Shown: positions 4,888 through 31,223 of the stretch, one piece after another
How the letters are laid out: the number at the start of each line of letters is the position of its first letter
Numbering within the stretch: position 1 is the first letter of the stretch
Assembly: GCF_030687835.1 (NCBI RefSeq)
Contig: NZ_CP117449.1
Location: forward strand, 4,154,001 to 4,218,000
Direction: 5' to 3'
DNA length: 64,000 nt
Source of the DNA: Pseudomonas hefeiensis
Lineage (GTDB): Bacteria > Pseudomonadota > Gammaproteobacteria > Pseudomonadales > Pseudomonadaceae
Translations under genes and position numbers: made by a program
Notes under the pieces: model-generated
The model's database searches: none
Told to the model about the DNA's origin: nothing
What the model saw: the letters and a program-made list of their open reading frames with translations, nothing else

Positions 4888-4896
4888 AAATCTCTA

Positions 4897-6154: not shown

Positions 6155-6196
6155 ACGGGCACGGCGTTCCTCCGTTTTTCTCTCGAGGAAATTGCC

Positions 6197-11313: not shown

Positions 11314-11340
11314 TGCCACCGAATGCCACCGAATGCCACC
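11314..11340 (+). repeat. 10-bp tandem duplication inside the CHAT gene
   Basis: The unit TGCCACCGAA is present 2.7 times in tandem. One extra copy explains the frameshift exactly: with 1.7 copies the upstream frame continues as LIFATECHPIQATQLLAW into the CHAT domain. Confidence 0.85.
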
Positions 11341-12216
11341 CAATTCAAGCTACTCAGCTTTTAGCATGGGGTAAGACTTGGCCGATTGCAGCGTCCTTGT
11401 CTAACCCTCGATCAGACCGTAAACCCTTGCGGGTTGCTTTATGGAGCGGTGGTGGAAGTATGACGGAGAAGATGGAGATCGAATTGGTCAAACATATCTT
11501 TCAAAAATCAGGAGCTAGTGTGGAAGTTTTTGAACCCGCAAATTGCTCACTCGAAGACTTTATCACCGCTTATCAAGATCCAAGCTTCGATATTTTTTGG
11601 GTAATGTCACACGGCGAATTCGATCATTGGTCACCAAAGGACGTAAAATTGCAAATTTCCCATGAAGGATTGAGTGTAGCGCTAGAGGATATTTGGGGAA
11701 AAGCCCCACCAGAAAAATTTCGACGCCTACTAGCTCTAAATGTCTGCGATGGAGCCCGCTTTGAGGAAAGGGGTCTTCTCCCAAAGATAGGTCTCGCGGC
11801 AGGTCTAGCTGGTCCCGAGCAAGCTACGATTTCTCATTTGTGGCCAGTGATGGGTTTCCCATCCGCTGCATTTGGTGTTTACCTCGCGAATTTTTTAGTG
11901 ACTGACCGCCCCTACTTTGAAGCCTATCAAGAGGCAATCAAAGCACTTCAAATGTCAGCGGTAAGTGTTGCAGATGATTTACGCAATCACTACGGCAATG
12001 AGTTTGAGCTAGTACAAAAGCTAGCCAATCGTGATGAAGACTATTCGACAATGCAAGTTTTTGGTTCTGCCGCCTTCTATCAATGACTAAAAACCACAAT
12101 CGTAAAAGGTAATTGTTGACCTATCACAAACTCGAGCCCCAGATCACTTAAGCTCCCGTTGTCCATTTTGCAGGGGGCTTATAGATCGCGCCTTATACAC
12201 GACTTACTTAGGCAAG

Positions 12217-14361
12217 CTACATCTCGGCAATCGCCCACTTCATGATATTTCGCTCAAACGGGGACAGCGGCATCCTATCCAGACGGCTCGCTAAGTGCCG
12301 TAACTTGTTCAGCAGGTCATTCAGGTTGTCAGATGGAAGGATCGAACTCTTAATCCGCGTCGAGACCTGCGTAGGAATCCCATATTCGTCCAGCGCCGTC
12401 AGTAAGGGATCGTGAAAAAGGTTCTCCATCTGCTCAGAGAAGAAACTGAAGTCTCCTGGCTCAATATTGCGCTGGGTGAAAACATCCGCCTGGATCTTGC
12501 TGATGGCCATAAAATCACGAGGAAGGCGGTAGCACAGGACGTTACGGATAAACTTGAGCCGAAGGTTGATCGCTTCGCTCGCAGTGGTGCCCGCACGGTT
12601 AGTGTCGATCGCGTTCTGCAGATACGCCGAGAAGTCTTTCTCCATCCGGACAGAGTTGATATGAAAGGCGAGCTGAGGGCCTGAAATGATTCCATAGTCC
12701 ATTAGTTTGGTCTGAAGGTGATCACAGACTAGGGTGCACACGTATTCGAGCTGGTTTTGTTCGGGGTTTCCTTTCCAAGTGAGCATTCGGCGACTCACTG
12801 CAAGGTTTCTGATAATTGATTCGGCGATCTCTATCTGCCGGTCAACCGGGATATGCCGATTTTCGACGAGCGTGGCTGTGGACAGCAACAGCGTGGCATA
12901 CGCCCGATCCAGTCGTTGGCGGGAGATCTCCGTGAGGTACTCCGGCTCTAGCTTCATCAAAAGCCCCATCGGCGAGTTTTCGTTCTGCAGTCCGATCGGA
13001 TAATCTACGGTGAGATCTTTTTCTTCCGGCGGCGCCTCCAGCATGTAAACCTTGCCGATGAAGTAGCGGTTCATGCGACCCGCGCGGCCAGAAATGTTCT
13101 TGAACGTGAAGAAATCGAACGGTGTGTTACTAACCCGGCGGTCATAAATGATGACGTTTTCTGCTGAGGTATTGACCCCCTCAATCATCGTAGACGTGCA
13201 GATAATGTGCTTGATTGTCCCCTCGTTGAAGAGCTTCACAAAATACTGCTGCAGCGCCCTAGGGACGCCACCATGGTGAATGGCGATACCGAGCGATATG
13301 GCCTTGGCGACGTTCCACTGTGGGTGGTACTCCTTCGCGATCCATTGAGCAATGTCTTGTGTCTGCGCGAGCGGTGAAAACCCGCCTTTTTCGATAAGGA
13401 ACTGTGCAATCTTGTTTGCGCTTGCCGGCGACTGAGAGTAGATGAGCGTGGGGGTGGTAATTTTGCGGCAGAGTTCTAGGAGCTTGTCCTTACGCGCATC
13501 TCCGTTGGTCGGCAGATTAAAATGCTCAACATCAACGGCCACTGTGGAAAAATTGGAGGGGATGAAATTGTACTCGTAAGCGTCGAGACCGTGGATGTTT
13601 TGGATATGAGGGCCGAGTAGATAGAACTGCGCCCCCTGTTTTGCCAGCTTATGGAAAGCCAAGCTCAAATCAATCGCACGGCTGCCGGCTTCCGAGTCAC
13701 TGGACAGATCAAGTTTGTAGAATTCATCTACGACAAAAAAACCGACGTCCTGTAGATCGACACGCTGGAGGACTCTCTCCTGGGTCAGCAGGTAGACGTT
13801 TACTCGTGCGTCGTCGGCCTCCTGAGTCGGATGCGTAATAACGTTGCATCTCTGTTTGAAACGCTTGACCAAACGTCGGCGCGTTTCGTCGATGAGGGCG
13901 ATGGTTGGAACGATGACCACAATCTTGCGAAATTTTTCCTGGGCCAGAATGGCGTCGATCACCAGGCTTTTACCGACGCTTGTGGAGGCGCTCAGCACGA
14001 CGTTGCGTCCTTGCATTAGCAAGCTGAACACATGAGCCTGCAGCCGGTGAAAAACCATGCCTACTTCAACTCCGTCCACCCGATGCATCTCGTAGGCCAG
14101 ACGGTCTGAAATCGATATTTCATCGAGGTACGGAGTGATGTAAGGGAATAGCCCCACAGCGCGGATCATACTCAGCAGCAAGGATTGCTCAACTTCACCA
14201 AACAAGGCGAATTTATCGAGCGCACGGATGACGAGGTCTCGCCCTTCCCACTCTGGGTTCCCCCGGTTCACGGCAACACTGATAGCTTGGAGAAGCTCGA
14301 TCCTGGAGCTTGAATCTTCACCGAGTCGTTCGAGTCGCTCCTTAACTACTTCATATCTCAT
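12217..14361 (-). CDS. abpB: AbpB-like SF2 DEAD/DEAH helicase
   Basis: This 714-residue helicase carries STSVGKS (Walker A, residues 126-132), VVPTIALIDE (motif Ia), VVDEFYKL (motif II, DEFY at 212-215), LIYSQSPASANKIAQFL and ICTSTMIEGVN (motifs IV-V), and ISGRAGRMN (motif VI, about 423-431). The last 250 residues are helical and unassigned. It starts 6 bp after the DUF4297 nuclease gene. Size and pairing match E. coli AbpB (YfjK, 729 residues), which with AbpA blocks T4, T7 and lambda growth. The system is cytoplasmic and probably senses or unwinds phage DNA for the partner nuclease. Assignment to AbpAB rests on size, order and domains, not on alignment. Confidence 0.78.
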   Translation of the reverse strand: MRYEVVKERLERLGEDSSSRIELLQAISVAVNRGNPEWEGRDLVIRALDKFALFGEVEQSLLLSMIRAVGLFPYITPYLDEISISDRLAYEMHRVDGVEVGMVFHRLQAHVFSLLMQGRNVVLSASTSVGKSLVIDAILAQEKFRKIVVIVPTIALIDETRRRLVKRFKQRCNVITHPTQEADDARVNVYLLTQERVLQRVDLQDVGFFVVDEFYKLDLSSDSEAGSRAIDLSLAFHKLAKQGAQFYLLGPHIQNIHGLDAYEYNFIPSNFSTVAVDVEHFNLPTNGDARKDKLLELCRKITTPTLIYSQSPASANKIAQFLIEKGGFSPLAQTQDIAQWIAKEYHPQWNVAKAISLGIAIHHGGVPRALQQYFVKLFNEGTIKHIICTSTMIEGVNTSAENVIIYDRRVSNTPFDFFTFKNISGRAGRMNRYFIGKVYMLEAPPEEKDLTVDYPIGLQNENSPMGLLMKLEPEYLTEISRQRLDRAYATLLLSTATLVENRHIPVDRQIEIAESIIRNLAVSRRMLTWKGNPEQNQLEYVCTLVCDHLQTKLMDYGIISGPQLAFHINSVRMEKDFSAYLQNAIDTNRAGTTASEAINLRLKFIRNVLCYRLPRDFMAISKIQADVFTQRNIEPGDFSFFSEQMENLFHDPLLTALDEYGIPTQVSTRIKSSILPSDNLNDLLNKLRHLASRLDRMPLSPFERNIMKWAIAEM

Positions 14362-14367
14362 GTCAGC

Positions 14368-15981
14368 CTAAACCCTGCAACGTGAGTTGAACTCTTTGAT
14401 CAAGTTCTGGATGCTTTCGATAGGAACAAGAAACACTGCAATTCGGATCTGATCCATTTTCTTCGGCAGATGGACTTTCAATGAACTGTAGTGGTCGTTG
14501 ATCTCGTGCTTCAGCCGATCAATATAGTCAGAGAGGTATCCAGAGGATAAGGCATCACTGTCGTAAGCCAGTAACACAGGAAAGCACAGCACCTTCAGCA
14601 TCTCTTCGGCAGGCGTGTTTCGTTCCAATGCTTTGTTGAAATCCTCCGAATTGGAGCGAAGGTGATTCGGTTCGCGCAGTGAGATGATGATCTCGCGCTC
14701 GTTGGTCAGTGCAGCTTTGTTAATTGTAGAATCCAGAGTGCTGCAAACCTGCGCCATAGTCTGGGCCATGGTTCCCACAGTAATCATCCTCGCCAACCCC
14801 AGCCAGAGTTGATCGACCTCGCCTGAGCGCTGAACAATATGGGCGTTCCCGAACTCGGATAAGCCTGTCTTTGAGGCAAAGAACACTTTGCACGCGATCG
14901 GCTCGCTATTTTCCTTATTCCTCAAAATCACATGCAGGATCAGTTCTGCAATTAACTTATCGCGCTCCATGCCATTCTGAGTGAACGTAGCAATCGCCTT
15001 CGACAGAATCGTCTGAGCATGATGAACCTGAAAATTCACGATCTCGCTGGCTTGCAAACAGAACTCGGGGAGCCACTGAACCAGGTGCTCAGCGAGTTCC
15101 TTATGCCTCCACTCGCCAAAGTCATACTGAACGTCGTACCCGGTCAGGCTGCGTAGCAATCCCTCCTCGGTTGCGGCATGAAACTCGACCAGAAAAGGTG
15201 GAGGCTTGGATTTATAGGGCTTCGAGTAGGTGATGTTTTTGCTATCAGCCGCCGCCAGGAGTGCATCGAGGCGATCCATGGCAGCCACGCGCGTAATGAC
15301 CTTTTGTGTAGATTCGGAGATGACGTTTGCAGTTGCCGCATCATCTGCCCAACCCAGAAAGTCCGCGTAGATTGCCTGCTGTTGTTTGTGCGTAGGCCAC
15401 GAGCCTTGAAGATCGATTACTTCTGCCAGCTTGCGCAAATTCACCGACTCCAGCGCGTCCACATCGCCACATATCTGCCACACAAAATTGTCCGCCCAAT
15501 AGCAAAAGTCGCGCCCCATGGGTGAGCGTGTTTTCTTGAACTTCTTAGCAAGAGCTGTCCCACGGCTGGTCGCAAGGTCAGGCTGATTTCGCTTTTCAAG
15601 CTCCAGTTTAAAGCAACTCAAAGCTTTGGCGGTATCGCGCTTGGTGACCATTCGGAACCGAGCTTTTCCAGGACGGCAGTCACAAAGCAGTGACTTCTGC
15701 AGTAGAGAAGTGTCAGCCCGGCCGTTGTCCAGAGCGGTTGCTTCACTCTGGTTCCACTTGCTGTCACCCTCGGTAGTTTTGACCTGAATATATTCGTTAA
15801 CCGTCTCACCAGACTGGCGAGAGACCAGCACGATGTCGTCAGCAGTTTCACACTCGACCTGCTGGTAACTGCTATCGCGGAGCATCTTCAATATGAAGGA
15901 AACGGCAACGTGATCCTGATACTTGAAACCTTGCCTTGCCGCAGGCCCACCTTTGTTCGATGGGATCTTGATAAGCACCAT
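14368..15981 (-). CDS. abpA: AbpA-like protein with DUF4297/Cap4-type nuclease domain
   Basis: This 537-residue protein opens with a DUF4297-like dsDNA nuclease domain: GGPAARQGFKYQDHVAVSFILKML (residues 11-34), CETADDIVL with acidic residues 45-49, and YIQVKTT with the QxK lysine at 68. That is the E/D...QxK layout of PD-(D/E)xK enzymes. The remaining 400 residues are helical with no motif I know. E. coli AbpA (YfjL) has 538 residues and lies next to the helicase AbpB, as here. It is the first gene of the two-gene operon, and the promoter should lie in 15982-16160. The likely role is DNA cleavage or growth arrest during phage infection. Confidence 0.75.
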   Translation of the reverse strand: MVLIKIPSNKGGPAARQGFKYQDHVAVSFILKMLRDSSYQQVECETADDIVLVSRQSGETVNEYIQVKTTEGDSKWNQSEATALDNGRADTSLLQKSLLCDCRPGKARFRMVTKRDTAKALSCFKLELEKRNQPDLATSRGTALAKKFKKTRSPMGRDFCYWADNFVWQICGDVDALESVNLRKLAEVIDLQGSWPTHKQQQAIYADFLGWADDAATANVISESTQKVITRVAAMDRLDALLAAADSKNITYSKPYKSKPPPFLVEFHAATEEGLLRSLTGYDVQYDFGEWRHKELAEHLVQWLPEFCLQASEIVNFQVHHAQTILSKAIATFTQNGMERDKLIAELILHVILRNKENSEPIACKVFFASKTGLSEFGNAHIVQRSGEVDQLWLGLARMITVGTMAQTMAQVCSTLDSTINKAALTNEREIIISLREPNHLRSNSEDFNKALERNTPAEEMLKVLCFPVLLAYDSDALSSGYLSDYIDRLKHEINDHYSSLKVHLPKKMDQIRIAVFLVPIESIQNLIKEFNSRCRV

Positions 15982-16163: not shown

Positions 16164-16634
16164 ATGCGGATCACATTGCAAGGTGAGGACGACCTGGAAC
16201 AGGCGCTTCGCGAGATACATCTACGAGCTAGCACGTATGAGGGGCCATTGATGCACCAGTTCATGGAGCTGGCCAAGCTCAGCGCGCCAGTCGAGCCTGA
16301 CGAGCCCGTTGGGGAGGAGCTCCAAGATAAAAGGTTAAGCAGTGCCAACGCGGAACCCGCGAGGCGCAACGAGACCAAAGAGCGATTTGAAGAAGCTCTG
16401 TCGTTACTGATGGTGCTCGCTTTTCCAGTGAACAGCGGAACCGAGCAAGCAGTTCGCCGCGAACTCAACGAGGTGCTCGCGCGCGATCAGCAGGTCGAGT
16501 CAATGCAGATGCGCACCGGTAACCGAAAAACCAGTCTACGACGTAACCTTGGACGGCGCCCGACGAAGCAGCAAATTGCGTTGCGGGGAGCGTTGCTCGA
16601 ATTTCTCCCACGAGAGACCAAGGAGGATTTATGA
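16164..16634 (+). CDS. Hypothetical protein, first gene of an unknown two-gene unit
   Basis: This 156-residue protein starts at ATG 16164 with GGAGG 5 bases upstream. It is charged and largely helical (EDDLEQALREIHLRA at the start; a basic tail RKTSLRRNLGRRPTKQQIALRGALLEFL). No known domain was recognised. Its stop overlaps the start of the next gene by 4 bp, so the two products are probably made in fixed ratio. It is divergent from abpA and convergent with the STAND operon. The basic C-terminus could bind nucleic acid; that is a guess. Confidence 0.65.
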   Translation: MRITLQGEDDLEQALREIHLRASTYEGPLMHQFMELAKLSAPVEPDEPVGEELQDKRLSSANAEPARRNETKERFEEALSLLMVLAFPVNSGTEQAVRRELNEVLARDQQVESMQMRTGNRKTSLRRNLGRRPTKQQIALRGALLEFLPRETKEDL

Positions 16635-17389
16635 GTACGACTCCATCCATCGCGGCAGGCGTCAAGAAGAAAAAGAAGAACCAACCCGCACCACCGGACT
16701 TGGTCAAAGCTGTGGGCGCGCTCTTCGACATTGCCGCGAAAGCGCCTCCCCCCCTTCAGCTACAAGCGATGGCTCGCGACAAATTGTACGAAATGCTGGT
16801 TCTTGCTCGTTTGCTGCGGGTATTTCGGAGTGCGCACCCGAAAGGGTCGATCATTCATCGACCACCATCTAAGGGAGGTAAGGCGTCAGAGGTGGTAGTG
16901 GCGAGTAAACCAGCTCTGGCCGATCGCAAAAGATTCTCGCACTTTGATCTGCTCGACGCCGCTGGACAGACAATGGGGGAAGCTTGGACCTCGGTCGAGT
17001 TTGAGTCGCTGAGTTGGGCGCATAACGGCGGAGTTCCGGGCAAGGCCCCCCGCCAGGCCCGACACGAGCTTGACGTCTGTGTACTTGAGCCAGGCGCAGG
17101 AGAGCGCCCGTCCCACTCGCAGATCTTTGCGGGCATCAGTTGCAAAGACGTGCGCAGCTCCTCGAAGGAAAACGTACGTGAGGCACTGGGGCTACGCCGC
17201 GAGACAGCTTTCCTGCAGCCGCCAGTGCCAAGTCTCGCCCCTTGGTTGGTCACTGACGTCCCTGCGGAACCGAGTGCACCGATCCTTCTCATCAGCTCCG
17301 ATGTCGGGGTAAGGAAATACTCGTCACCAGTTGACGCCCTGGGCGTCTATATCCGATTCGTGCGTCGCCCCTGGGAAGCAGAGGTTTAA
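16631..17389 (+). CDS. Hypothetical protein with PD-(D/E)xK-like pattern
   Basis: This 252-residue protein has a lysine-rich N-terminus (VKKKKKNQPAPPDLVKAV). It then has a helical region and a stretch that fits a restriction-endonuclease-like core: ARHELDVCVLEPG followed by IFAGISCKDVRSS (D then CxK, roughly residues 146-178). A helix, EALGLRRE, follows. An AAGGAGGA site precedes ATG 16631, which overlaps the previous stop. The pair lies inside a block of defence genes, so a nuclease with a small partner is a reasonable reading. The family was not identified and the nuclease call is tentative. Confidence 0.6.
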   Translation: MSTTPSIAAGVKKKKKNQPAPPDLVKAVGALFDIAAKAPPPLQLQAMARDKLYEMLVLARLLRVFRSAHPKGSIIHRPPSKGGKASEVVVASKPALADRKRFSHFDLLDAAGQTMGEAWTSVEFESLSWAHNGGVPGKAPRQARHELDVCVLEPGAGERPSHSQIFAGISCKDVRSSSKENVREALGLRRETAFLQPPVPSLAPWLVTDVPAEPSAPILLISSDVGVRKYSSPVDALGVYIRFVRRPWEAEV

Positions 17390-17443: not shown

Positions 17444-20400
17444 TCAAGGAACGACAATGCGATCTCCAAGCCGCTTTCGGACAGCTTCTCTCAACTGAAC
17501 TTTGCCGAGATTGTCGAGAATGGAGGCTGAAAGAGGTTCGGAAGCCATCAACAATTGACGTCCGGGATGATCCGGTTCCAGCAGATCGAGGATTCGATCG
17601 GCAGTCGTACGATCGCGCCTGGCCATGGCGTTGGCGCCAACCAGCAGCAGAGCGCGTCGCTTGTTCGAGCTGGCGACCCGCTCAAAGAGTTTAAGGGCAT
17701 TTTCCGCGGAAGCATGGGCGCCGACGAGATGAGCCGCTGACGCCGCAAGGATTGGCGGCGAACTCAGCAGAAACGCGGATGTCAGATGCGCGACAATGCT
17801 AGGGTCTACGGAATCGGCGTCGGCCAGGGCGTCAATGGCGTCGAGGCGTATCCAGCGGGCTTCCGGAATATTGACGAGGTTCGATATTTTCTGCTGGATT
17901 CTGGCGCTACAGCAATTCGCTGCGACGATCAGGGCATTTTGGCTAAGCGCGCGGTCGACCGTTGTGGCGGCAAGATCGAGAAGAGTATTGCCGATTGCAT
18001 CGGATAAGGGACCGTTCACTGCAAGGGCAACGACCGCCTCTTGCGCAATATCAAAGCTTTCGGGCTCGTCGTAGTGCGGTTCAGCGCTCGACCAAGTGTC
18101 ATGCATCAGAAACAACAGCGTTTTGAGGTGATCCGGGTGCGGCCGTTCTGCAAGCAGGGCGACTAGGGCGCGGCGAACGCGACTGCCAGGATCGGATGCC
18201 ATTGTGAGGATTGCAGGCGGCAAGGGATCCGGGAGTGTCGGCGCAAGATGAAACAGCGCCGTACAGCGAGCATCGGCGCGCTGGTGGCGAAGCGCAGCCT
18301 CAATAAGGACGGTATCGCCAATCGCAATCGCCGCCTCGGTCGCACTGACGGCATGCTCTGTACGGCTGGCAATGGTCAGCCATTGGATGATCGCTGGCGA
18401 AGCGTCGCCACTGCTTGCGATGATGACCGGCACGACAAGGTCGAGCGCATCCGCATCGAGTTGCGAGGCACAAGCCGTCAGGAATGAGAGCGTCGGACCG
18501 TTGACCTTGCGAGCTTTCCGCTTCCTGGTCGGGAGCGCTTTGTAGATTTCCTTTAGTTCCCTTGGAAGCGCGCCTGTGATCAGCCTTAGGGTGGCCGCGT
18601 GACTGTCTTTCCCGAGTTGCCGGCGGGCGCGCTGCATGGCAGTTAGCAGGGTGACTTGTCGATCAGGCTGTCCACTATTCTCCTGGAATGCGGCGACCAG
18701 GGATTTTGGTGCGACTTTCAAAGCTGTGAGCGCAAGCTCGTCACACAGATCCACCTCAGAGGGAACTGAGCTGATCCGCGCCGTAAGCGTAGGCTCCAGC
18801 GCTGCGTTCCATTGCTCTCGCGCTGCCGCCCAGACATATGGCTCCTCATCCATACTCTTGCCCGCTACGAGAATCGCTCGAAGCTCGTCTTCACCCACCG
18901 GTCCGGGGGAGGTTAAGAGCGCCTGCGCCCAGGCACGGACCAACTCCGCTACGCGCGGATGGCTGGCAAGGACCAGCCAGCGACCCTCTACGCGAAGCTG
19001 ACGGATGTAGGCGTCGATGAAGACACCGGATGTGTACCCGTCGCCGTCATGGTTCGACTGCGCGGCCTCTTCAGCGGCATGGTCCCGTTCGCCATCCTCA
19101 ATTGCACGCCATTCCTCTCGGCCACTCTTAGCGTGTTGATGGTGGATGCTCGCGAGGTCGTCCAACGCAGCCTGCACTATCCTCTCGAACCCTGTTAGAT
19201 CGCGCATGGCGCCGGCCGCGACAGCATTGGCGTTAAGCTCGAAGCCGTGGCCGACCATCTCGTGCGCGGCGTCGAGATAGGCGGTGGTCAGGTTGGGTGC
19301 GAAGCGATCGAGCCGCTTGGCGAAGTCCACTCCGTAGTCCCCTCGGTCGAAACCAAGCTCCTCACGAATAAATCGGGCGGCGACTTCGGTCGCGATGGGG
19401 CTCGCGGACACAGAGTCATACCAGGCATCGTCAAAGACCGGCGGCTGCCAGTTATGGGTGAAGAAGGAAGCCCCCCGCTGTGTACCTTTCAACAGCCATC
19501 GCGCCACGCGGCTTGGTATCGAGGCATCGCTACCTACCTCGGACGCCAGCTCCAGCAATGGTGCGAACTTGGAGGCGGGGTCCATGAGACTTTCGTCCAG
19601 CCAGGCATCGATCGCTTCCTGGCTGTTGGAGTCAATTGCGAAGTCTTGGTCAACGTCCTGTCGGCCAGCGAACGTGCGAGCAACTTCATAAACTCTGGCT
19701 GCCGTTTCCATGCCCCAGCTGCGTTGCGTTGACGGCAGCTGAACGAGCGCGGAGATCAGGGTCTCGATCGCAAACTCGGTCTGCCCCCAGCAGCCCCTTG
19801 CGAAGGCCTCAAAGCCTTGGCGGACGCTCGGATGAGCGAAGGCGATCGTGCGGGCCGGCTGCCGCAGATGGCGGGCCGCGACCATACGGTCTACGAGGCG
19901 ATCCAAGCCATCGCCTAGCGCTCGATCAAGTCCACGTAGGGTGCGTTGAAGAGCGTGAAGTCGGGCGCGGTCGAACTGGCCCCGCGCCGCCAGCAGCGCC
20001 CAAACGATGGCTGAGGTTCCGCTAGTGTCGATAGATGATAGAGCTCTGACGACGACACCTTCCACCGCATCGCGCTGCGCCAACTCGAGCAGCCGGCGAA
20101 AGAAGACATGGTCTTCTTCCCCGGCATCCGGGCCGGTTTGCATGTGGGCGAAATACAGCTCTATCTCGAGCGGCGTCCCAAGCTTGTCTAGTACCTCATT
20201 GCGAAACGCGTACGCCTTGGTTTGCAGAGCGGCCGGTAGCTGATCCATGCGATTGTCATGAATGTCGCGGAGTTGACCATCCCGATACTGGCCGGCATCC
20301 AACTCGACCGACCACGTATTGAGACTCACCCCGACTTTGGCGCTCTGCATCATGTCGCTGCGGGACGTGATGACGAACTGGTGATCAGGCGTGGCCTTGG

Positions 20401-21496
20401 CGAGCAGGCGCGGCAGCTGCTCGGTCCATGCTTCGCTGCCCCCGCGTAGGCTAAATTGGCCCCACGGATCATCGACATAGAAGAGTGTCGATCCGTTGTT
20501 AACGACCTTACGCACGCTGGTCGGCGAATCGTCCGCGCCGATGGTAACAACTTCCAGCGCACCATCGCGCCGTCGCGCGATATCGCATAGCTTGAACGCC
20601 GCCTGCGTCTTGCCCGTACCTGAAGGGCCCATAATCACAACTGCATTCTTGTCGCTTAGGATTCTGAGCATCTCATCGAAGTTCGCAGGCGCCACGAAAT
20701 GCTCAAGGCTGGCAGAGCTGGCCAGGAACCCGCCGTGCGTCCTTACCGTCGCGAGAAGATCGTCGCTCGTCCATAGACCGGGCGTGCTGCCTCGGGTCCT
20801 CCGCTTGGCTTCGAGACGCAGCGTTGCGATCAGATTTTGCTGCTCGACCTTCGGAACATGCAGCAGGTCCGACATCAGTTCCCGGGTATCGGATGCGAGC
20901 TGCTTTTCGGTGAGCCTGCCCCAGATCGCGACGCGGCCTTCGGGCGAAGCTTTCAGTGTGGCATGAAGTCTCGGAGGGAAGCTTGCCTTGTCGGATACCT
21001 CTTCGAAGCCTTCGACCAGCAGGTTACGCGCGACTCCCTTGGCGTCGGCATTGGTCACGAGCAGATAGCGGGTGTTCGGATCGTCGAGATGATGCAGTGC
21101 TTTTCGGCGCCCACCTTTTTTGTCGGAGCCGTGCTTGAGCAGACCTTCGAAATCTACGACCGACCAGGGCTCGCCGCTGTCCATTTTGATTTGGATGACA
21201 AGCTTATATCCGCCAGAGACAGTCGCACTGGGTTGTACCCGTCCTGGCACGTTGGGCTCCAGATCTGCCTCCAGATCTTCCTCGTTTGCCGGTTCCAGCA
21301 CCAGGCGCGTAGCCGCTTTGGAAATGAGGAGGAGTTGCAGGGCTGCGAGGATCGAGACGTCTAGCTGATAGTCGAAACCGGCTTGAGCGGCGGCCGCGCC
21401 TCGCAGGGGACGCCTTGCTTCCGCGCGATCTGAGAAGGATGTGTCCGACGCGTCGGAGTGCGATTGCTTGATGTCTCGACGTTTATTTGTCGACAT
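17444..21496 (-). CDS. Large STAND ATPase with N-terminal DUF4297-like nuclease domain and C-terminal HEAT-like repeats
   Basis: This 1350-residue protein has three parts. Residues about 32-165 resemble a Cap4/DUF4297 nuclease (GAAAAQAGFDYQLDVSI, LVLEPANEEDLE, then LVIQIKMD with K at 104). Residues about 265-480 form a STAND-type P-loop NTPase, probably nSTAND3, with GPSGTGKT at 290-297, LFYVDDPWG (Walker B) at about 339-346 and FVITSRS (sensor). The C-terminal 700 residues are helical and repeat-like (for example DPGSRVRRALVALLAERPHP), consistent with HEAT/ARM ligand sensing. This is the architecture of Avs-like phage sensors: the repeats detect a phage protein, the ATPase oligomerises and the nuclease fires. 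It overlaps the upstream STAND gene by 14 bp. Confidence 0.85.
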   Translation of the reverse strand: MSTNKRRDIKQSHSDASDTSFSDRAEARRPLRGAAAAQAGFDYQLDVSILAALQLLLISKAATRLVLEPANEEDLEADLEPNVPGRVQPSATVSGGYKLVIQIKMDSGEPWSVVDFEGLLKHGSDKKGGRRKALHHLDDPNTRYLLVTNADAKGVARNLLVEGFEEVSDKASFPPRLHATLKASPEGRVAIWGRLTEKQLASDTRELMSDLLHVPKVEQQNLIATLRLEAKRRTRGSTPGLWTSDDLLATVRTHGGFLASSASLEHFVAPANFDEMLRILSDKNAVVIMGPSGTGKTQAAFKLCDIARRRDGALEVVTIGADDSPTSVRKVVNNGSTLFYVDDPWGQFSLRGGSEAWTEQLPRLLAKATPDHQFVITSRSDMMQSAKVGVSLNTWSVELDAGQYRDGQLRDIHDNRMDQLPAALQTKAYAFRNEVLDKLGTPLEIELYFAHMQTGPDAGEEDHVFFRRLLELAQRDAVEGVVVRALSSIDTSGTSAIVWALLAARGQFDRARLHALQRTLRGLDRALGDGLDRLVDRMVAARHLRQPARTIAFAHPSVRQGFEAFARGCWGQTEFAIETLISALVQLPSTQRSWGMETAARVYEVARTFAGRQDVDQDFAIDSNSQEAIDAWLDESLMDPASKFAPLLELASEVGSDASIPSRVARWLLKGTQRGASFFTHNWQPPVFDDAWYDSVSASPIATEVAARFIREELGFDRGDYGVDFAKRLDRFAPNLTTAYLDAAHEMVGHGFELNANAVAAGAMRDLTGFERIVQAALDDLASIHHQHAKSGREEWRAIEDGERDHAAEEAAQSNHDGDGYTSGVFIDAYIRQLRVEGRWLVLASHPRVAELVRAWAQALLTSPGPVGEDELRAILVAGKSMDEEPYVWAAAREQWNAALEPTLTARISSVPSEVDLCDELALTALKVAPKSLVAAFQENSGQPDRQVTLLTAMQRARRQLGKDSHAATLRLITGALPRELKEIYKALPTRKRKARKVNGPTLSFLTACASQLDADALDLVVPVIIASSGDASPAIIQWLTIASRTEHAVSATEAAIAIGDTVLIEAALRHQRADARCTALFHLAPTLPDPLPPAILTMASDPGSRVRRALVALLAERPHPDHLKTLLFLMHDTWSSAEPHYDEPESFDIAQEAVVALAVNGPLSDAIGNTLLDLAATTVDRALSQNALIVAANCCSARIQQKISNLVNIPEARWIRLDAIDALADADSVDPSIVAHLTSAFLLSSPPILAASAAHLVGAHASAENALKLFERVASSNKRRALLLVGANAMARRDRTTADRILDLLEPDHPGRQLLMASEPLSASILDNLGKVQLREAVRKRLGDRIVVP

Positions 21497-23801
21497 CGTC
21501 GAACACCGAGCGCTTTGTCACGACGGGGGTGGAAGCCGGAGCTTCCTCCTTCTTTGGCGTCACGATGTGCGTCCAATCCGCTTCGTCTTCGGAGCCTTCA
21601 TCATGCTGGCGCTTGCGCTCTTCAAGCGCCTCGACTGAGCGTTTCACGTGATCGCGCGCGTCGTCGATCAAAGCCGTGGCGTCCGCGTCGACACCAATCG
21701 TCTCAATGCAATCAAGCACGCCGAGAAGCTTTTTAAAGTGGCTGTCAGGCTCTTCGTCCAAGTCAGCGTCGGCAGCGATCTCATCGATCCTCTCTTCGAG
21801 CGACGGCAGCACAGTTGTCCGCAGCGCCAATCCCACACCGATAAGCCTTAGCGGCGGTATGACCGCTAGCATCTGTGGCTCGTCGAAGAAGGAGACGTCG
21901 AGACCGTTGAGCACGGCAGATTCCAGCCTGTCGGCTACCTCAGAGCGCAGATCGTTAGGCAAGACGCTGAGGTGATGAGCACGTGCATAGGTGGCGATCC
22001 GGGGATCGTTGCTGGTGAGGTCAGATTGCCAGCATGGCCGTCGAAGTAGATTGGGAAATTGCTCGACGGCTTTGATGAACACGGCCTCGCTTGAACGATA
22101 GGAAAGGAAGTGGAACAGCATCCAATTGCGGTGTAGTTCGTCGGGCGTGCGGCCAAGTCGTGCGACCAGAGCGTCGTCGAGCGTTGTCTGGATGACAAGC
22201 GCATCTCGAATGAGCGGCGAGCCCTCGCATGTGAAGCTACTAAGAATGGTGTCGATAGTCGCGCCTCGTATGAGCGCCGCCATCATATGGGGCTTCTGGC
22301 GCAGAATCTCCGTTAGGGCGTCGGAGATCGTCGGATGGGCGAAGGTCCATTTTGATCCCGAAAGCTTCAGGAACGAGCCTTTCAGCTCAGCGAAACAATC
22401 CTGAATCTTAGTGAGAGTGTACCCAGTCAGCTCAGCGACCGCCTGTGCGGCCGAAACGTCATGATCGTTAGGATCGAATCCGGCCTGATGGACATACACG
22501 AGGATGAGCGCGGCCTGCAGCTGATCATCTAAGGCGTTGACGGTATCAATCAGATGCTCTGTCGGCTCCTCCATAAAGCGTACGAGTGAGCTTTCGCGGG
22601 GCGCTAGGCCCTTGGTGAAGTTTGGGTCGCCGAGACGTTCGGCGATCCCAGGGAGAAAATCGCGAACCGCAGCTACAGCGGCTAGATGCGGTTTGATGCT
22701 CGATCGCCAGCTCTGGCTCTGCTCACCGAAATTTACATGATTATAGAGAATCTGCGTCTTCTCTTCGAACGTCAACTCGCCAACATCCACCACGGCGCTA
22801 CCGTCTGCGAATTGGGCAAGGTTGCGCTGCCCGAGCCGGCGCCGCGCCGCTTCATAGATATGTTTTCGGGAAGTTAGAAGAAATCGATTGCCATGCTTGA
22901 TCGCGGCCCGCAGCTTGGAGAAGGCAGACGTCCAGTCCTGCACATAGTCGTCGCGTAGCACATTGGAGCCGAAGGCATCGTCGATCCAGAAGAAGCGCCC
23001 TGGATCATTAGGATTCCAACCGGCCTCAAAGTCGCGTGGGCTGGTCAGAGCAAGTACGGTGTTGTCTGGATTTTCCGACGCTATGGTCGACACGATGGCG
23101 CCAATCGCTGATTTACCGCTAGAGGGATTACCGAGTAGCAGCACTACGCCGTGCTCAGAGATAGCGTTGACCGCATCGCGATGAGCCTGCGTAGGCACAT
23201 AGGTGCGAAGCTTTGGAATCCAGCTGTCAAGCAACGCCCGGCTCTGCTCGCTGAGCCGCTCATCTACGATCGAGGTGAGGTCGCCTAGGCCGTAGACCTG
23301 CGGAACGAGGGCCCGGAGGCGCGCGCTGCTCCTGATAACACGGACGATATACTGGCGACCGAGAATGTGCGGCTTACGCACGCCAAGCGCGCGGAGTTTG
23401 GCACGCATTGCGGCTGCGACAGGCGCATCTACGCTCATGTTCGTCATGAAGACGTAGGTTTCTGCTTGGCCGGCTTTGACCAGCTCCTCGACATGAGCGA
23501 TCTCGGCGGTGAGATCACTGAGCTTCAACGCCTTTGCGGCATCGGACGTATGCTTGCATTGCACGGTTCCGATCAACAGGGCGTCGTTTTCTGCAGAAAT
23601 GAGGAAGACCGCGTCCTGACCGCCGTCTTGAGCTTCGCGGAAGATTTCCACGGGCCGGCCGAGCACGACCTCGCATACCTGCGAGCATAGATCCTGAAAC
23701 GCGCGCCAGCCGATGGTGTGGAGCGCCAGATCGGTCCAAGGGCCGTTGGCTCTACGTTCGGGCAGCACAGAAGACTCGATTAGCACACCCTCGTCCTTCA
23801 T
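21483..23801 (-). CDS. STAND ATPase with N-terminal Mrr-like restriction endonuclease domain
   Basis: This 772-residue protein begins with an Mrr/REase-like domain: GWRAFQDLCSQVCEVVLG, then EIFREAQDGGQDAVF (D at 63) and IGTVQCKHTS (QxK at 81-83). A STAND P-loop module follows, with GNPSSGKS at 224-231, FFWIDDAFG at about 270-278 and FLLTSRKHIY. The C-terminal 400 residues are helical, and the tail is charged and probably disordered. I chose ATG 23801 because it overlaps the stop of the preceding SIR2-like frame (ATGA), which indicates translational coupling; an upstream start would run through that gene. With the next gene it forms a two-sensor operon in which each STAND carries a different nuclease type. 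Confidence 0.82.
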   Translation of the reverse strand: MKDEGVLIESSVLPERRANGPWTDLALHTIGWRAFQDLCSQVCEVVLGRPVEIFREAQDGGQDAVFLISAENDALLIGTVQCKHTSDAAKALKLSDLTAEIAHVEELVKAGQAETYVFMTNMSVDAPVAAAMRAKLRALGVRKPHILGRQYIVRVIRSSARLRALVPQVYGLGDLTSIVDERLSEQSRALLDSWIPKLRTYVPTQAHRDAVNAISEHGVVLLLGNPSSGKSAIGAIVSTIASENPDNTVLALTSPRDFEAGWNPNDPGRFFWIDDAFGSNVLRDDYVQDWTSAFSKLRAAIKHGNRFLLTSRKHIYEAARRRLGQRNLAQFADGSAVVDVGELTFEEKTQILYNHVNFGEQSQSWRSSIKPHLAAVAAVRDFLPGIAERLGDPNFTKGLAPRESSLVRFMEEPTEHLIDTVNALDDQLQAALILVYVHQAGFDPNDHDVSAAQAVAELTGYTLTKIQDCFAELKGSFLKLSGSKWTFAHPTISDALTEILRQKPHMMAALIRGATIDTILSSFTCEGSPLIRDALVIQTTLDDALVARLGRTPDELHRNWMLFHFLSYRSSEAVFIKAVEQFPNLLRRPCWQSDLTSNDPRIATYARAHHLSVLPNDLRSEVADRLESAVLNGLDVSFFDEPQMLAVIPPLRLIGVGLALRTTVLPSLEERIDEIAADADLDEEPDSHFKKLLGVLDCIETIGVDADATALIDDARDHVKRSVEALEERKRQHDEGSEDEADWTHIVTPKKEEAPASTPVVTKRSVFDDVDK

Positions 23802-24052
23802 GCAGTAGCAACAACACGTAGAACGCCGACTGGCGTAAGATGGATTTCCGCGTTTGTGGCGTCGCAATTTGCATCCGAATCAAGACAGAATTTGTCGATG
23901 CAGCGTTTTTCGACTGTTCTAGCTGACGGCAGATTATTAGGAGGATCCATGGAAAGCCCAGAGCCGCAGACCACTAGAAAGCTGGCGGCGTTCATAGAGG
24001 CTAGAAGTCGAGTGAGTGTCTCAGGCGTCAAGCGCCCCCCATGGAGAAACAT
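23798..24052 (-). CDS. SIR2-like N-terminal stub, coupled to the STAND operon
   Basis: This 84-residue frame contains LLASMNAASFLVVCGSGLS followed by MDPPNNLPSARTVEKRC. This is the Rossmann GxGxS and LPS segment that opens SIR2-domain defence proteins. The rest of a SIR2 fold, including the catalytic His region, is missing; the frame ends after about 40 further residues. Its TGA overlaps the ATG of the Mrr-STAND gene in an ATGA, so it looks like the first cistron of that operon. An in-frame internal deletion of a longer SIR2 gene would leave exactly this. Starts at 24100 or 24109 are also possible; AGGCGAG favours 24052. It may be non-functional or a small regulatory remnant. Confidence 0.5.
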   Translation of the reverse strand: MFLHGGRLTPETLTRLLASMNAASFLVVCGSGLSMDPPNNLPSARTVEKRCIDKFCLDSDANCDATNAEIHLTPVGVLRVVATA

Positions 24053-24601
24053 CTCGCCTACCTGATTCAGCTGCGATTTTATCGATCCGGTTGATCGCAT
24101 TAGTAGCACTCACCGTTGTCCCTCACTTTGGCTTTCTCAAAGCCCTTCTTGACCTGATCAGTGATCGAAAGGGTCATGCTGTGCTTCACTCCCTTATCTT
24201 CTCAAATCTATACTGTCCGACCTTGCTCGCATAGCCTGACTTCAGACGCAGCGCAACTCGAGGGGACGCACACTTTAAATTTGAGCGACAGTGTCCGATG
24301 TTATTTCTAGTTAAGCCTGCTTTTCCTGAATCCCGATCTTCCACCATGAAGACTTCCAGCACGTGCGGATTCAACGCGATGGCATCCTGGAATTCTGTTA
24401 AGAATCCCCCTTCGCTATCGCCCGCACATCGTGTGCGAACGAGGGCAAACCTGGGGGCAAAATTTACGATCCGAATGTCTGCCCCCCCAGCCAGAGCCCA
24501 GATGAAGTTTTTTTGCGACCCTGAGAGTCTTCGAAAAGCAGGGCAGACGTTTGCAGAACACCGCCATCATGAACGATACAACTACTTTGCAATTGTGGAG
24601 C
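24053..24601. other. Spacer between the STAND operon and the phosphatase unit, with a possible decayed frame
   Basis: About 550 bases without a solid gene. The STAND operon promoter should lie at the left end. On the minus strand one frame (24186 to about 24530) is open and protein-like (GGFLTEFQDAIALNPHVLEVFMVEDRDSGKAG, given here only in part) but lacks a good start; it may be the tail of a truncated gene. I could not assign it. The sequence near 24430-24450 (gtgcgaacgagggcaa) loosely resembles one near 30790, possibly a module-boundary repeat. Confidence 0.35.
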
Positions 24602-26371
24602 TCATTTCTGAGCCGGGTGCACCGCTTGCAGATGATTGGAAAACCCTACCTCATTTTCACAACGCCAAGTCGCCCACAGTTTGCATCCCGTCTCTCCGCC
24701 CATGTCCAGCTCAAACGCCAACCAGTTCCGAGCCGGCATCACATACCGATTAAAACCGGGGAACAACATCATCTCGACACAGTGCTGCACATCGATGGAT
24801 TGGACCTTGCTGGCGGTATGGTTCAGCAACTGAAGAAAAAGCCGTTCGGCCACTCCAATCAACGACGGATGCACCACACCTGACGAAGTAAATTGCTGAA
24901 TCTGCGCCCAGTTCGACGTTGGCGGAATATCCCTTCGGTAGCAACTGCCCCAGGCCGCGACATGCACGTCCCCAGAAGCAATGGATACACGCAGCATTCT
25001 CTGCTCAGCAATACGAGTCAGCGACTCCAGGAGTCGCTTACGCTCCCCCTCGTGATCCCCGTGCGACCAATGATCCTTAAGGTCATCAGCATTACTGTCG
25101 AGCACATGATCCTGCCCAAACGTATCGAGCAACCCTTCAGCCAGCGACAATTTGGGGTGCGCGACCGGAACCGAGGACAGGAAGATCAAGTGCTGACATT
25201 TGCTTCCAGGATAAGCAGGCTTACCGTCACGGAGCGTGTTGAGCCAAGCCTGCATAGCAGTCCAGGTATCGGCCCCCAGTACCTGGGTACGTGAACGCTC
25301 AGTGCGCAGATCAGCAACAAACAACGATACCGGCCCCAAGTGATAGCCGAAACTAAAGCCCGGCTGACCATCCAAGAGCGGCAAGGCCAATCGATCTCCC
25401 TTTAATCGGGCACTCCATTGCATCGGCTCATACTGTGGATCCTGCTGGGAAACGTTTGCACGCTGGAGCAATTGCAACGGCGGCAAATCATCAACGGCAT
25501 GCTGCAACTGAAACACCCAGAACGCCCTACGCGCATGACGCATCAACACCTGGAATAACTCACAGTGCTGCATAGCCGGGCTGTAGGACCCCCAACCGTC
25601 GAAGATGTCGTGGTCGTCCCACATCATCACCGTAGGGATTCTCGCCATCGCATCAGCGGCATCAAGGTTCGGTTTGGAGTGCCCCCAGTCACGCCGAGTA
25701 TCAGGCAGCCAACGATTGGCATAGAGCCCGAAATAATAGGATTCGATCTCCTTCTCCAGCGCCACGCTCACCTTGAACGCCAACTGCTCCTTGCGCGACA
25801 TTCCGACCCATTTCTTGAGAGGCTTCACATCCTCCCAGATCGAGTCAAAGTAAATCTGATCACCCCCCATCAGCAGCAAGTGGAACCGCTTCAACCCCTT
25901 GTCATGGATTCGCCCTTCGTGCCAAAGCTGCTCCTTGTCCAGCACGTAACTCGCAGCACGCAAGTCACTGTCATGGTTGCTGATCAGGTCAGCCCAGACG
26001 GCGTTTTCAGGGCGCACTAACTTGCGCATTCCACTAGGATCCGAAAAGCCATTGCAAGAGACGTAGGCCATTCTTGGGGCATAGTCTTGTCCGGGAATGG
26101 AGAACTGCCATTGCGGCCCTCCCTGCCCTAGACCAAACTGAACCGTTCGCTCCTGCGCCTGCTGATCACAGCTCAGGTCGTAACGAAGGATGGTTTCTTT
26201 CGGACGCTCCAGCAAAACCTTCGGCGCCGGACAAGACTGGCCGTCAACAGAAAGAACAGGAAATGCGGCGCCAGCTACAACTCCGACTAACGCGGTCACC
26301 TGCCACTGCCCGGTTTGGCTTACGCCTCGGAATGACAACACGGGCCCCACAGTAAAAAGTGCTTTTGACAT
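24602..26371 (-). CDS. PhoD-like metallophosphatase
   Basis: This 589-residue protein has an N-terminal beta-rich domain (about residues 1-95) and then a PhoD/metallophosphoesterase core: LLMGGDQIYFD (169-176, metal-binding D), MMWDDHDIFDGWGS (about 249-262, DDHD), and ASGDVHVAAWGS (465-476, GDVH). There is no signal peptide or Tat motif, unlike secreted PhoD enzymes, so it should act in the cytoplasm, perhaps on a nucleotide or phosphodiester. It follows the TIR-like/DUF4062 gene by 5 bp in the same direction, implying one operon. Inside a defence block such a pair may make and break, or activate and restrain, a signal. That role is inferred. Confidence 0.8.
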   Translation of the reverse strand: MSKALFTVGPVLSFRGVSQTGQWQVTALVGVVAGAAFPVLSVDGQSCPAPKVLLERPKETILRYDLSCDQQAQERTVQFGLGQGGPQWQFSIPGQDYAPRMAYVSCNGFSDPSGMRKLVRPENAVWADLISNHDSDLRAASYVLDKEQLWHEGRIHDKGLKRFHLLLMGGDQIYFDSIWEDVKPLKKWVGMSRKEQLAFKVSVALEKEIESYYFGLYANRWLPDTRRDWGHSKPNLDAADAMARIPTVMMWDDHDIFDGWGSYSPAMQHCELFQVLMRHARRAFWVFQLQHAVDDLPPLQLLQRANVSQQDPQYEPMQWSARLKGDRLALPLLDGQPGFSFGYHLGPVSLFVADLRTERSRTQVLGADTWTAMQAWLNTLRDGKPAYPGSKCQHLIFLSSVPVAHPKLSLAEGLLDTFGQDHVLDSNADDLKDHWSHGDHEGERKRLLESLTRIAEQRMLRVSIASGDVHVAAWGSCYRRDIPPTSNWAQIQQFTSSGVVHPSLIGVAERLFLQLLNHTASKVQSIDVQHCVEMMLFPGFNRYVMPARNWLAFELDMGGETGCKLWATWRCENEVGFSNHLQAVHPAQK

Positions 26372-26376
26372 CCCTG

Positions 26377-27501
26377 TTATCTCCCTTCAAGTTCGGCGGC
26401 AATAACTTTGACAATCTTGGCGCGTGAAGCGGCTCTCTTGGCCAGAATTTGCGCTTCACCTGTTTGATCCAACCATTCCCTAAAACGCTGGAGCGCATGG
26501 CGCGTTTGCGACGCATCGCGACAGTTGGCCAGGAAGGCAAACTGTACTTTCTGTACATCATCAGCGACAAAAATACCGAAGGAACCGCTTACAACCGTAG
26601 CATCAGGAAAGCCTAACAACGTAGTGGCCTGAGTCTCTGTTGCTCCACGGTGACAGGCGATTAAATGCAACGGTCCTTCTGCACCTTTCAACAGATCAGC
26701 ATGCTCATGGTCACGCAGAAAAGGCTTACCCACCAGCTCACGCGCAGCAGCAACCGTGAACGCAGCCGGGATTGCATGGACAAACACAACGACATTCACT
26801 CCAGCAATTGGAACAATGGCTAACGCTTCGCTAGCAGGGACTTTGCCACCATTGAGCGCCTGCAGTAACACCGCTTCCATCGCTCGTTTGCGCTGACGGA
26901 AGTCCATCCGTGTCCAATCCAGCGCCTGGCCCATATCGAAACGGCTCGAAGCCGCAGCGGTTACACCGCGCTGGGTCAGAACGACCAACGCATCGAGAAG
27001 CGCTTCCTGAACGCGGCTACGCAATTGCTCAACGGTTGAGACCATTCCACCCCTGAAGGGTGTCTGTTGTGCAATAAAGGCCTGGAAGCGCTGATTACGT
27101 GCTGTCTCAGCTACCTGGCCATCGCCTGTTGGGATATTTGGCATAGCGATGAAGCGCACCTTCCCCCGAGTAGTGGCTAGTCCCTCCATGTACTCCGCAT
27201 GGCAAATACCAATGTCGCCGTCACCACTGGCCCAGCCGGCATTGCCATTGGACAGCACCAGTAGCACATCGCAATCCCTCACGGCTTGCAAACAGGCATC
27301 CCAGCTGTCCTGCATTCCGTCCGCAGAAGGTGCATCTTCGTTAATCCAAACTTCAAATACCTGTTTGCCAAATAGCTTCGTGCCCTCTATCTCACGTTTG
27401 AGTTGCTCTCGGATATTGCTGAGCGTTTGATCGCTGTCCGCGGGAAAGCGATCGTTACAACGACTGGACAGCATTACTTTGATTCTCTTTGACTGGGCCA
27501 T
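26377..27501 (-). CDS. TIR-like / DUF4062 domain protein
   Basis: This 374-residue protein opens RIKVMLSSRCNDRFP and continues with VFEVWINEDAPSADGMQDSWDACLQAVRDCDVLLVLSNGNAGW and EYMEGLATTRGKVRFIAMP. That is the pattern of DUF4062, a TIR/SEFIR-like flavodoxin-type fold: beta strand with SS, a glutamate, a CDV(L) strand, and an E near the EYxxA helix. The C-terminal 200 residues carry a second alpha/beta region (LAIVPIAGVNVVVFVHAIPAAF). It is the first gene of the unit with the PhoD-like phosphatase. TIR-like domains in defence often cleave NAD or make signals; whether this one does is not shown. Confidence 0.7.
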   Translation of the reverse strand: MAQSKRIKVMLSSRCNDRFPADSDQTLSNIREQLKREIEGTKLFGKQVFEVWINEDAPSADGMQDSWDACLQAVRDCDVLLVLSNGNAGWASGDGDIGICHAEYMEGLATTRGKVRFIAMPNIPTGDGQVAETARNQRFQAFIAQQTPFRGGMVSTVEQLRSRVQEALLDALVVLTQRGVTAAASSRFDMGQALDWTRMDFRQRKRAMEAVLLQALNGGKVPASEALAIVPIAGVNVVVFVHAIPAAFTVAAARELVGKPFLRDHEHADLLKGAEGPLHLIACHRGATETQATTLLGFPDATVVSGSFGIFVADDVQKVQFAFLANCRDASQTRHALQRFREWLDQTGEAQILAKRAASRAKIVKVIAAELEGR

Positions 27502-27620
27502 CCTTGCTCCTGCCCCACTTCCGAGGCCTCAAAATTCTTTGATCAATGAATACCTTCCCGCCCTATCTCCAGATTCACCTGGCCAAGAAGCCGGAGGCAA
27601 TATGGTGCCCCCCCTTTCTG

Positions 27621-30551: not shown

Positions 30552-31100
30552 TGCATTCACCACATTGAATGTGAAAATCAGCGCTGATTAGTCAGTGGCC
30601 ACATGCTATCAGTGAACATCATCTTAGGTGTACCCTGAAAAGCAGCGCTCAAACCCGCCACCCGCTCTGCCTTCATCAACCGAAGATCGAGGCCAAAAAG
30701 TCTAATCTGCGATGGAGGTACACCGAAAGCCATCCGAATCCATCCTGGTCCCTGTCAGAAATCGCCATTCGCGATCGCTCGTACACCCGGTGCGAATGGG
30801 GGCATAGCGAATTTTTTCGACCTGTAACTCCCGCTCTAGAGCCTAGTCAAAATGTTCTTTGGAGAGAACGACCTTGACTGTATTTACAGACTTCGGGATT
30901 ACCACGCTTTGCGGCGCGACTCTGCATCAACCGCAACCGCTCTCCAAATCGGCAACCCTTTAACAAGCGTCTTCGCGCCTTCAGGATCTTGTACTGATAC
31001 GACCTGCCCGGGGGAAACGAGAGTCGAACGCCTCTCAAGTGGCATATCTACCGAGATCCAAGATATCCGTGGGAGTAAATGTGGGAGTATTTTTTAGACA
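30552..31100. other. Island right end, no firm gene
   Basis: About 550 bases between the helicase and the tRNA terminator. On the minus strand 30578-30733 is a 51-codon frame (MAFGVPPSQIRLFGLDLRLM...) that reads like protein and could be a small gene or a remnant; I give it about 0.25. No integrase, transposase or long direct repeat was seen. GTGGGAGT occurs twice near 31070-31090. If the island entered at the tRNA-Pro 3' end, one attachment site should lie close to 31147. Confidence 0.4.
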
Positions 31101-31146: not shown

Positions 31147-31223
31147 TGGTCGGGACGGAGTGATTCGAACACTCGACCCCTAGCACCCCATGCTAGTGCG
31201 CTACCGGACTGCGCTACGCCCCG
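31147..31223 (-). tRNA. tRNA-Pro (anticodon GGG)
   Basis: The 77-base gene folds into a full cloverleaf: acceptor CGGGGCG with CGTCCCG, anticodon arm CTAGC-ATGGGGT-GCTAG giving anticodon GGG, and T-arm GAGTG-TTCGAAT-CACTC. The ACCA end is encoded. It reads the proline codons CCC and CCU. It sits downstream of the MerR gene on the same strand. tRNA 3' ends are common integration sites, and the island described here lies on the 3' side of this gene, so it is the likely attB. Confidence 0.95.

Follow-up and report, generated by a model that had tools for sequence, protein, structure and literature searches.

The window, by which we mean the whole stretch of 64,000 nucleotides of Pseudomonas hefeiensis DNA that was analysed, carries on its minus strand two large overlapping genes that we refer to as small and big. 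Each encodes a STAND protein in which a predicted nuclease domain is followed by an nSTAND3 NTPase and a C-terminal region, and immediately upstream of small lies a short open reading frame that we call the scar ORF. The features of the locus are collected in Table 1. An earlier note on this DNA had described two STAND genes sharing 14 bp, and we find the open reading frames, their strand and their coordinates to be as it had claimed. The start of small is taken as the ATG at 23801, which the alignment of relatives identifies as the conserved start. Both proteins score over the curated cut-off of the nSTAND3 profile (PF20720; E 9.8e-17 for big and 5.9e-35 for small), and they are the only two to do so among the 14 matched places in this genome. 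A promoter search returned one match, on the plus strand, with shuffled sequences giving more, and direct repeats of at least 25 bases were absent from positions 1-31600 of the window.

Table 1. Features of the gene pair and of the ORF upstream of it, in window positions.
Feature	Position	Strand	Details
big	17444..21496	(-)	1350 aa; Cap4-like nuclease domain, nSTAND3 and long C-terminal region with HEAT-type match
big, HEAT_2 match, residues 1063-1134	18095..18310	(-)	below Pfam cut-off
big, nSTAND3 NTPase domain	20273..20698	(-)	Walker A GPSGTGKT at residue 290
big, Cap4-like PD-(D/E)xK nuclease domain (remote), residues 33-190	20927..21400	(-)	invariant E68, D74, Q102, K104
small/big overlap	21483..21496	(-)	14 bp
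small	21483..23801	(-)	772 aa; Mrr-type nuclease, nSTAND3 NTPase, C-terminal region and conserved tail
small, C-terminal tail RSVFDDVDK	21486..21512	(-)	F767, D769, D771 invariant in 12/12
small, nSTAND3 NTPase domain	22728..23201	(-)	Walker A GNPSSGKS at residue 224
small, Mrr-type nuclease domain, residues 25-170	23292..23729	(-)	D63...Q81-x-K83
scar ORF	23798..24109	(-)	103 aa; SIR2 gene start and apparent last codons of LmuB-like gene

The two nSTAND3 proteins also appear to carry different nuclease domains, as the same note had proposed, with an Mrr-type domain predicted in small and a remote Cap4-type domain in big. For small, the Mrr_cat profile gives a match (E 5.9e-4) whose 20.4 bits fall slightly short of the cut-off of 21, and residues D59, G61, D63, Q81, C82 and K83 are invariant in 12 of 12 aligned relatives. 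For big, the Cap4 profile does not match the protein of the window itself; Cap4_nuclease is weakly matched by two of 14 N-terminal relatives (best E 0.0018), and an hhalign comparison of the 14-row N-terminal alignment with the Cap4 domain of HamA, which is encoded in the same window, gives a probability of 86% and an E of 4.9e-6. The four putative catalytic residues of big listed in Table 1 are invariant in all 14 of these relatives. Among solved structures there was no relative of small at E<=0.1, and the N-terminus of big had seven matches, all at E 0.16 or worse, which include an anti-bacteriophage protein A and also an LmuA. Viral contigs held zero pattern matches for small and six for big, none of the six being a relative, and phage records held a single match to small, at 28% identity over 22% of its length.

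The last residues of small form a conserved tail. The motif F-x-D-[VI]-D is kept in 12 of 12 diverse relatives, down to roughly 30% identity, and it sits in a segment (residues 764-772) where the mean frequency of the commonest residue is 0.75, directly behind a variable linker (residues 741-763) where that frequency is 0.31. The motif is also found near the end of 143 of the 144 proteins that the searches returned, nearly all of them close relatives; the remaining one is a partial sequence. One full-length small locus, L044, has a different C-terminus, and in L060 the tail is lost at the point where inserted ORFs start. The tail is absent from six more distant Mrr-nSTAND3 proteins at 21-24% identity, counted after L053, L082 and L097 had been dropped from the remote list as relatives of big and L040 as a repeat of L020; of these six (L020 and L033-L037), five end instead in LF-[SQ]-R. 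Known clamp-binding motifs are headed by a glutamine, which the tail of small lacks, and hence we make no claim of clamp binding.

In overall layout small and big resemble the Avs (AVAST) proteins, with which they share an N-terminal effector, a STAND NTPase and a C-terminal repeat or sensor region. Avs3 carries a Cap4 and Avs4 an Mrr nuclease domain. We nevertheless do not assign either protein to AVAST types 1-5 on the basis of PADLOC and NCBIfam models: no Avs model is among the PADLOC matches of small or big at E<=0.01, and in NCBIfam small has no match while big has two, both far below cut-off and neither of them Avs. The genes differ from Avs in further respects. They are two overlapping genes, their NTPase proteins have no SIR2 domain, and in L046 a relative of small even sits behind Avs2. 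The nSTAND3 domain (PF20720), on the other hand, is one that small and big have in common with Avs5 as described in PMC12931631. The PADLOC candidate PDC-S73 is matched by small with an E of 4.8e-26 over residues 55-392 (in a 794-aa numbering), a match that spans profile positions 12-344 of 752 and thus only the Mrr and nSTAND3 part, so that the C-terminal half of small and its F-x-D-[VI]-D tail are its own; big matches the same candidate over its NTPase (E 3e-8). Weak PADLOC matches of small are to LmuA (8.9e-4) and to an Aga fusion (1.3e-3). The suggestion that the pair might be undescribed thus stands in one sense, which is that no PADLOC protein model of a named system gives a good match to either protein. 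Among the literature matches listed, a search whose scope left out most subscription papers and preprints, none is recognisably on the pair or on a recurrent Mrr-nSTAND add-on, which does not prove that there is no such paper.

Co-occurrence, a longer operon and its scar

The overlap between small and big has the same length of 14 bp in seven of eight big loci on genome contigs, the eighth locus starting inside big. Because it recurs in seven of the eight, we take the overlap not to be a product of chance, and its retention across alpha- and gammaproteobacteria could mean that joint production of the two proteins is required.

A census of 398 Pseudomonas genomes, with presence of small scored at E<=1e-10, gives a different picture of the wider families. 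We find small in 17 of the genomes, big in 13 and both in only four; small occurs without big in 13 and big without small in nine. The matches cover a broad range of similarity. For small there are six at 91-100% identity, five at 32% and six weaker or partial ones, five of which (21-23%) are the more distant Mrr-nSTAND3 proteins; for big there are four at 93-100%, one at 63%, three at 44-48%, four at 26-32% and one fragment. The two genes are adjacent in all four of the genomes that carry both. In G427, two ORFs resembling an insertion element sit between small and big, and the tail of small is lost. The nine genomes with big only have zero small matches genome-wide at the threshold given above. 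A small of 91% identity occurs without a whole big in G634, where a decayed start of big is kept, and in G747, and Roseibium (L043), which lacks big, has small at 80% identity after the gene of an OLD nuclease; conversely, the copies of big at 63% and at 44-48% identity are in genomes without small. Among plasmid records, 38 have a match to small and 20 to big; the two that have both are Methylocella records in which big is reduced to 115 residues. Nine of the 20 plasmid records with big were examined for big, and these loci, with a distant big at 26-42% identity, showed no small match; the two Methylocella records were examined for small.

The idea of a fixed pair, put forward in the earlier note, therefore survives in part: the genes are linked, with the same overlap, in seven of the eight close loci, whereas for the wider families the census of 398 genomes leads us to reject a fixed two-gene system. 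That note had named as the outcome that would speak against the pair that the genes occur independently in most genomes, and this is seen for the wider families and not for the close clade.

A self-contained two-gene unit, too, is right only in part, as the two genes end a five-gene operon in three alphaproteobacterial loci. In Rhizobium deserti (L010) and Oceanicella (L012) the order is SIR2 - LmuC-like - LmuB-like ATPase - small - big, and Phenylobacterium (L015) has the same five-gene order with SIR2 and big cut by the contig ends; the three loci are close relatives, with LmuB 96% identical. The first three proteins (439, 190 and 682 aa in L010 and L012) look like a Lamassu module. The 682-aa protein of L010 matches PADLOC LmuB at E 7.6e-29, the 190-aa protein matches LmuC weakly and over only part of its length (E 9.5e-4), and the SIR2 protein comes slightly under the cut-off of SIR2_2 (E 4.6e-5; 24.0 bits against 24.5) with no match to the LmuA models. 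The likeness to Lamassu lies in the order SIR2 - 190 aa - SMC-like ATPase, and SIR2 is listed among LmuA effector domains in a part of PMC10586767; the differences are that the relatives add two STAND genes and that in the window the module is deleted.

What is left of this module in the window is the scar ORF, which was not picked up in the earlier reading of the sequence. Its first part corresponds to the first 57 residues of the Rhizobium deserti SIR2 protein at 70% identity. Its end resembles, by eye, the end of the LmuB-like ATPase gene that precedes small in L010, with a DNA identity to that gene of 0.63-0.73 in the final 60 bases and of 0.23-0.47 in the part before them, and its TGA overlaps the ATG of small by 4 bp. 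It is this ORF that links the pair to a larger operon. A complete LmuA or LmuB was not found in the window, where the SIR2 start and the LmuB end (the latter judged by eye and by DNA identity) are all that was found of them. The SIR2 scar is present in all Pseudomonas loci with both genes (the window, L009, L011, L013, L014 and L060; L058 and L059 apparently come from the genomes of L009 and L011), and beyond the SIR2 start protein comparison gives no match to the upstream module in these loci. The pair in the window thus appears to be the surviving 3' part of a five-gene operon from which the first three genes were deleted. Loss from the other end is seen in L056 (G634), where SIR2-LmuC-LmuB-small is followed by the decayed start of big, and in Methylocella L042, where small is followed by 115 residues of big.

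Both genes are under purifying selection despite the lost upstream module, and big changes faster. For small, dN/dS is 0.07-0.16 in four comparisons of the window with other Pseudomonas, and 0.32 within the close pair L013-L014, which has few changes; for big it is 0.28-0.30 between the window and four Pseudomonas loci and 0.26 against L060. Between the window and L009, L011, L013 and L014, dN is 0.024-0.036 for big and 0.008-0.014 for small, at a dS of 0.08-0.13 and 0.06-0.13, respectively. Across six Pseudomonas, big has 15-17 variable sites per 90 residues in 91-180, 541-630 and 811-990, and 4-8 over the same length in 181-540, where the NTPase lies; spread in this way, the variable sites do not single out the C-terminal region. 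Signs of decay are seen in single loci. The conserved ATG of small is missing from L009, L011 and L060, where the frame is open from residue 6 on, and in L056 small is still open beside the decayed big.

Changing partners upstream of small

We tabulated 33 small loci, some of them near-copies and thus not independent, and four of them with an incomplete small (L107, L108, L110 and L114). Of a wider set of 8000 scored candidates, 1272 are relatives of small. In 16 of the 33 loci, an ORF of 250 aa or more on the same strand ends within 250 bp of the start of small, and in 11 of these 16 within 10 bp; six loci have the Pseudomonas scar, and the other 11 have neither scar nor qualifying upstream ORF. 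L044, where a 282-aa gene ends 259 bp before the annotated start of small, is counted as having no upstream partner.

The genes upstream are of unlike kinds. Besides the Lamassu-like module, an OLD-type gene precedes small in Roseibium L043, G1244 (L094) and G1519 (L095), and in Methylocella L042 small comes after an HTH gene and the gene of a 253-aa protein that matches no family and by eye resembles AbiEii. Relatives of small at 30-36% identity lie behind AbiEi/AbiEii in Bradyrhizobium L045, behind an OLD-type gene in L039, behind PDC-S06, a type I REase-like gene and DUF2130 in L038, and, across a 141-bp gap, behind Avs2 in R. rhizogenes L046 (the Avs2 call scores 896 bits in PADLOC and 511 bits in NCBIfam, the latter under the cut-off of 1000). 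In L107, within the same range of identity, a PDC-S20-like gene is upstream of the incomplete small. The start of small overlaps the preceding gene by 4 bp when this gene is LmuB, OLD (L043 and L094) or the gene of the 253-aa protein, and the small of Streptomyces L109, at 31% identity, has a 4-bp overlap with a 289-aa gene without family match.

Upstream of small, DNA identity between L010 and the loci with other partners is at background (0.13-0.60 in 30-base bins); against L042, L043, L094 and L095 it climbs within the first 60 bases of small and stands at 0.63-0.87 in 300-base bins from base 300 to base 2100 of the gene. Such a rise may be due in part to low conservation of the N-terminus and not to a junction. 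The partners are also found without small, with OLD in Paracoccus L113 at 85% identity, SIR2-LmuC-LmuB in Methylobacterium L112 at 53-61% and the HTH/253-aa pair in Shinella L115 at 52%. In Aeromonas caviae L114, small ends after 104 residues beside transposase-like ORFs.

We built a tree of 23 small proteins and placed on it the partner classes, which are named for 14 of the proteins (L066 was left out, and L093 and L109, whose unnamed upstream genes are unlike each other, share one class). The classes require six changes, the minimum for seven classes. An OLD ancestor is possible, as OLD occurs on both main branches of the tree, and because many of the loci with the same partner are close relatives, the partner counts are not independent. 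In Pseudomonas with a relative of small at 31-32% identity (L061, L062, L064 and L066), the place behind it is taken not by big but by an exonuclease-like gene of 167 aa, together with one or two more genes of small size.

What the two genes may be doing

The observed basis for interpreting the pair is its anatomy, the intact catalytic and Walker motifs, the longer operon, the scar, the change of partners, the loss of either end and the selection on both genes; the independence of the two sensors, an anti-phage function and its trigger are what we infer. On these grounds we lean towards reading small and big as separate Avs-like STAND nuclease sensors that remain from a mobile five-gene operon, with small as a transferable add-on. 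An infection signal would bind the C-terminal region of a STAND protein, the ATP-bound NTPase would then oligomerise, and the N-terminal nucleases, once clustered, would become active, cut DNA and stop the infection. Translation of small would probably be coupled to that of whichever defence gene lies upstream, with no one partner needed. As for big, its family, mostly found without small, would have joined the operon and been lost again in some lineages. Should small be such a transferable arm, one and the same second line would serve defence systems that otherwise look unrelated, and experiments on Lamassu, OLD, AbiE or Avs2 loci confined to the annotated genes would overlook it. The question can be tested directly, since nature offers versions with small and versions lacking it for both OLD (Roseibium and Paracoccus) and the Lamassu-like module (L056 and Methylobacterium).

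A more far-reaching version, which we offer tentatively, would have small as a universal add-on STAND nuclease, coupled through its start codon to unrelated operons (Lamassu-like, OLD, AbiE, Avs2 and the type-I-REase-like set), with the tail docking all of its copies on one partner and making it a common back-up or guard arm. The conserved tail would offer a handle for finding that partner. A little more doubtful is that small serves as a shared second-stage effector or guard of the system upstream, firing when that system is triggered or when a phage inhibits it, with the tail as a docking or sensing element. That small stands last in loci with unrelated defence genes, several of which it overlaps by the 4 bp ATGA, fits such a role, as does a tail kept on a variable linker in the 12 diverse relatives, and there is an analogous module, acquired by Hachiman and AVAST. 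In the part of Tuck et al. 2025 available to us (PMC12799240), a recurrently acquired nuclease-protease module is described as having the same working in Hachiman and AVAST and as joined to Hachiman, AVAST, Lamassu and DRT. That module, as presented there, consists of an upstream MBL-fold pro-nuclease gene and a fused protease, whereas small is a stand-alone terminal Mrr-STAND gene, and the term 'Mrr' does not occur in the same part of the text. An effector or guard tied to its upstream system is also hard to reconcile with purifying selection on small that persists in Pseudomonas after the upstream module was deleted, and with the 11 of 33 loci that have no upstream partner. Moreover, a near-identical small (77-91%) serves different partners, which makes partner-specific sensing unlikely.

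We consider it unlikely that small and big form one hetero-oligomeric two-sensor machine, as the earlier note had suggested. The 14-bp overlap in seven of the eight big loci and the fact that the pair outlived the deletion of the other three genes in Pseudomonas speak for such a machine; against it, only four of the 398 genomes hold both genes, compared with 13 that hold small only and nine that hold big only. In L056, moreover, big has decayed while small is open, and big evolves faster than small as measured by dN.

Still a shade less probable, in our view, is that no functional link exists, so that defence genes would simply be shuffled in islands and the overlaps would reflect tight packing after recombination. 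The setting speaks for shuffling, in that conjugation genes flank the cluster on one side and a tRNA-Pro on the other, with the cassette near the same tRNA-Pro in other Pseudomonas, and many copies of either gene lack the other and pruning has left scars; against it, the 4-bp ATGA overlap recurs at the start of small whichever of several unlike genes precedes it, also in Streptomyces (31%), and this looks selected and not accidental. We give hardly any credence to the pair in Pseudomonas being a decaying relic of a Lamassu-like operon: three operon genes are gone, insertion-like ORFs split the pair of G427 with loss of the small tail, and three loci have no conserved small ATG, but in the window both frames are open with catalytic and Walker motifs intact, and dN/dS is far below 1.

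The surrounding region

The defence cluster that contains the pair probably travels as cargo on an integrative conjugative element sited at tRNA-Pro. Conjugation genes (TraU, TraG_N and TraI_2) and an ArdC-type anti-restriction gene are found at 685-9431 of the window, and a tRNA-Pro(ggg) next to pheT/pheS at 31147-31223; in L009, L011 and L060 this tRNA-Pro lies some 0.5 kb from the scar and some 0.8 kb from small. The pair is adjoined by the Hachiman genes HamA, with its Cap4 domain, and HamB (12217-15981). Between Hachiman and big, at 16164-17389, are two plus-strand ORFs of 156 and 252 aa that overlap by 4 bp and have zero Pfam, PADLOC or NCBIfam matches at E<=0.01. At 10148-12086, a gene for a BovA-like protein (PADLOC E 1.9e-105) overlaps an ORF with a CHAT match just under cut-off.

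A block of PhoD-like, DUF4062 and helicase genes occupies 24602-30563. The same block is found in G624 and G703 (L102 and L103) at 94-97% DNA identity over 5.2 kb, followed there by a different relative of big, of 1420 aa and 26% identical. Downstream of big in L009, L011 and L013, on the other strand, are a protein of 223-226 aa and an SMC-like ATPase with a length of about 920 aa, which by eye are possibly Septu-like.
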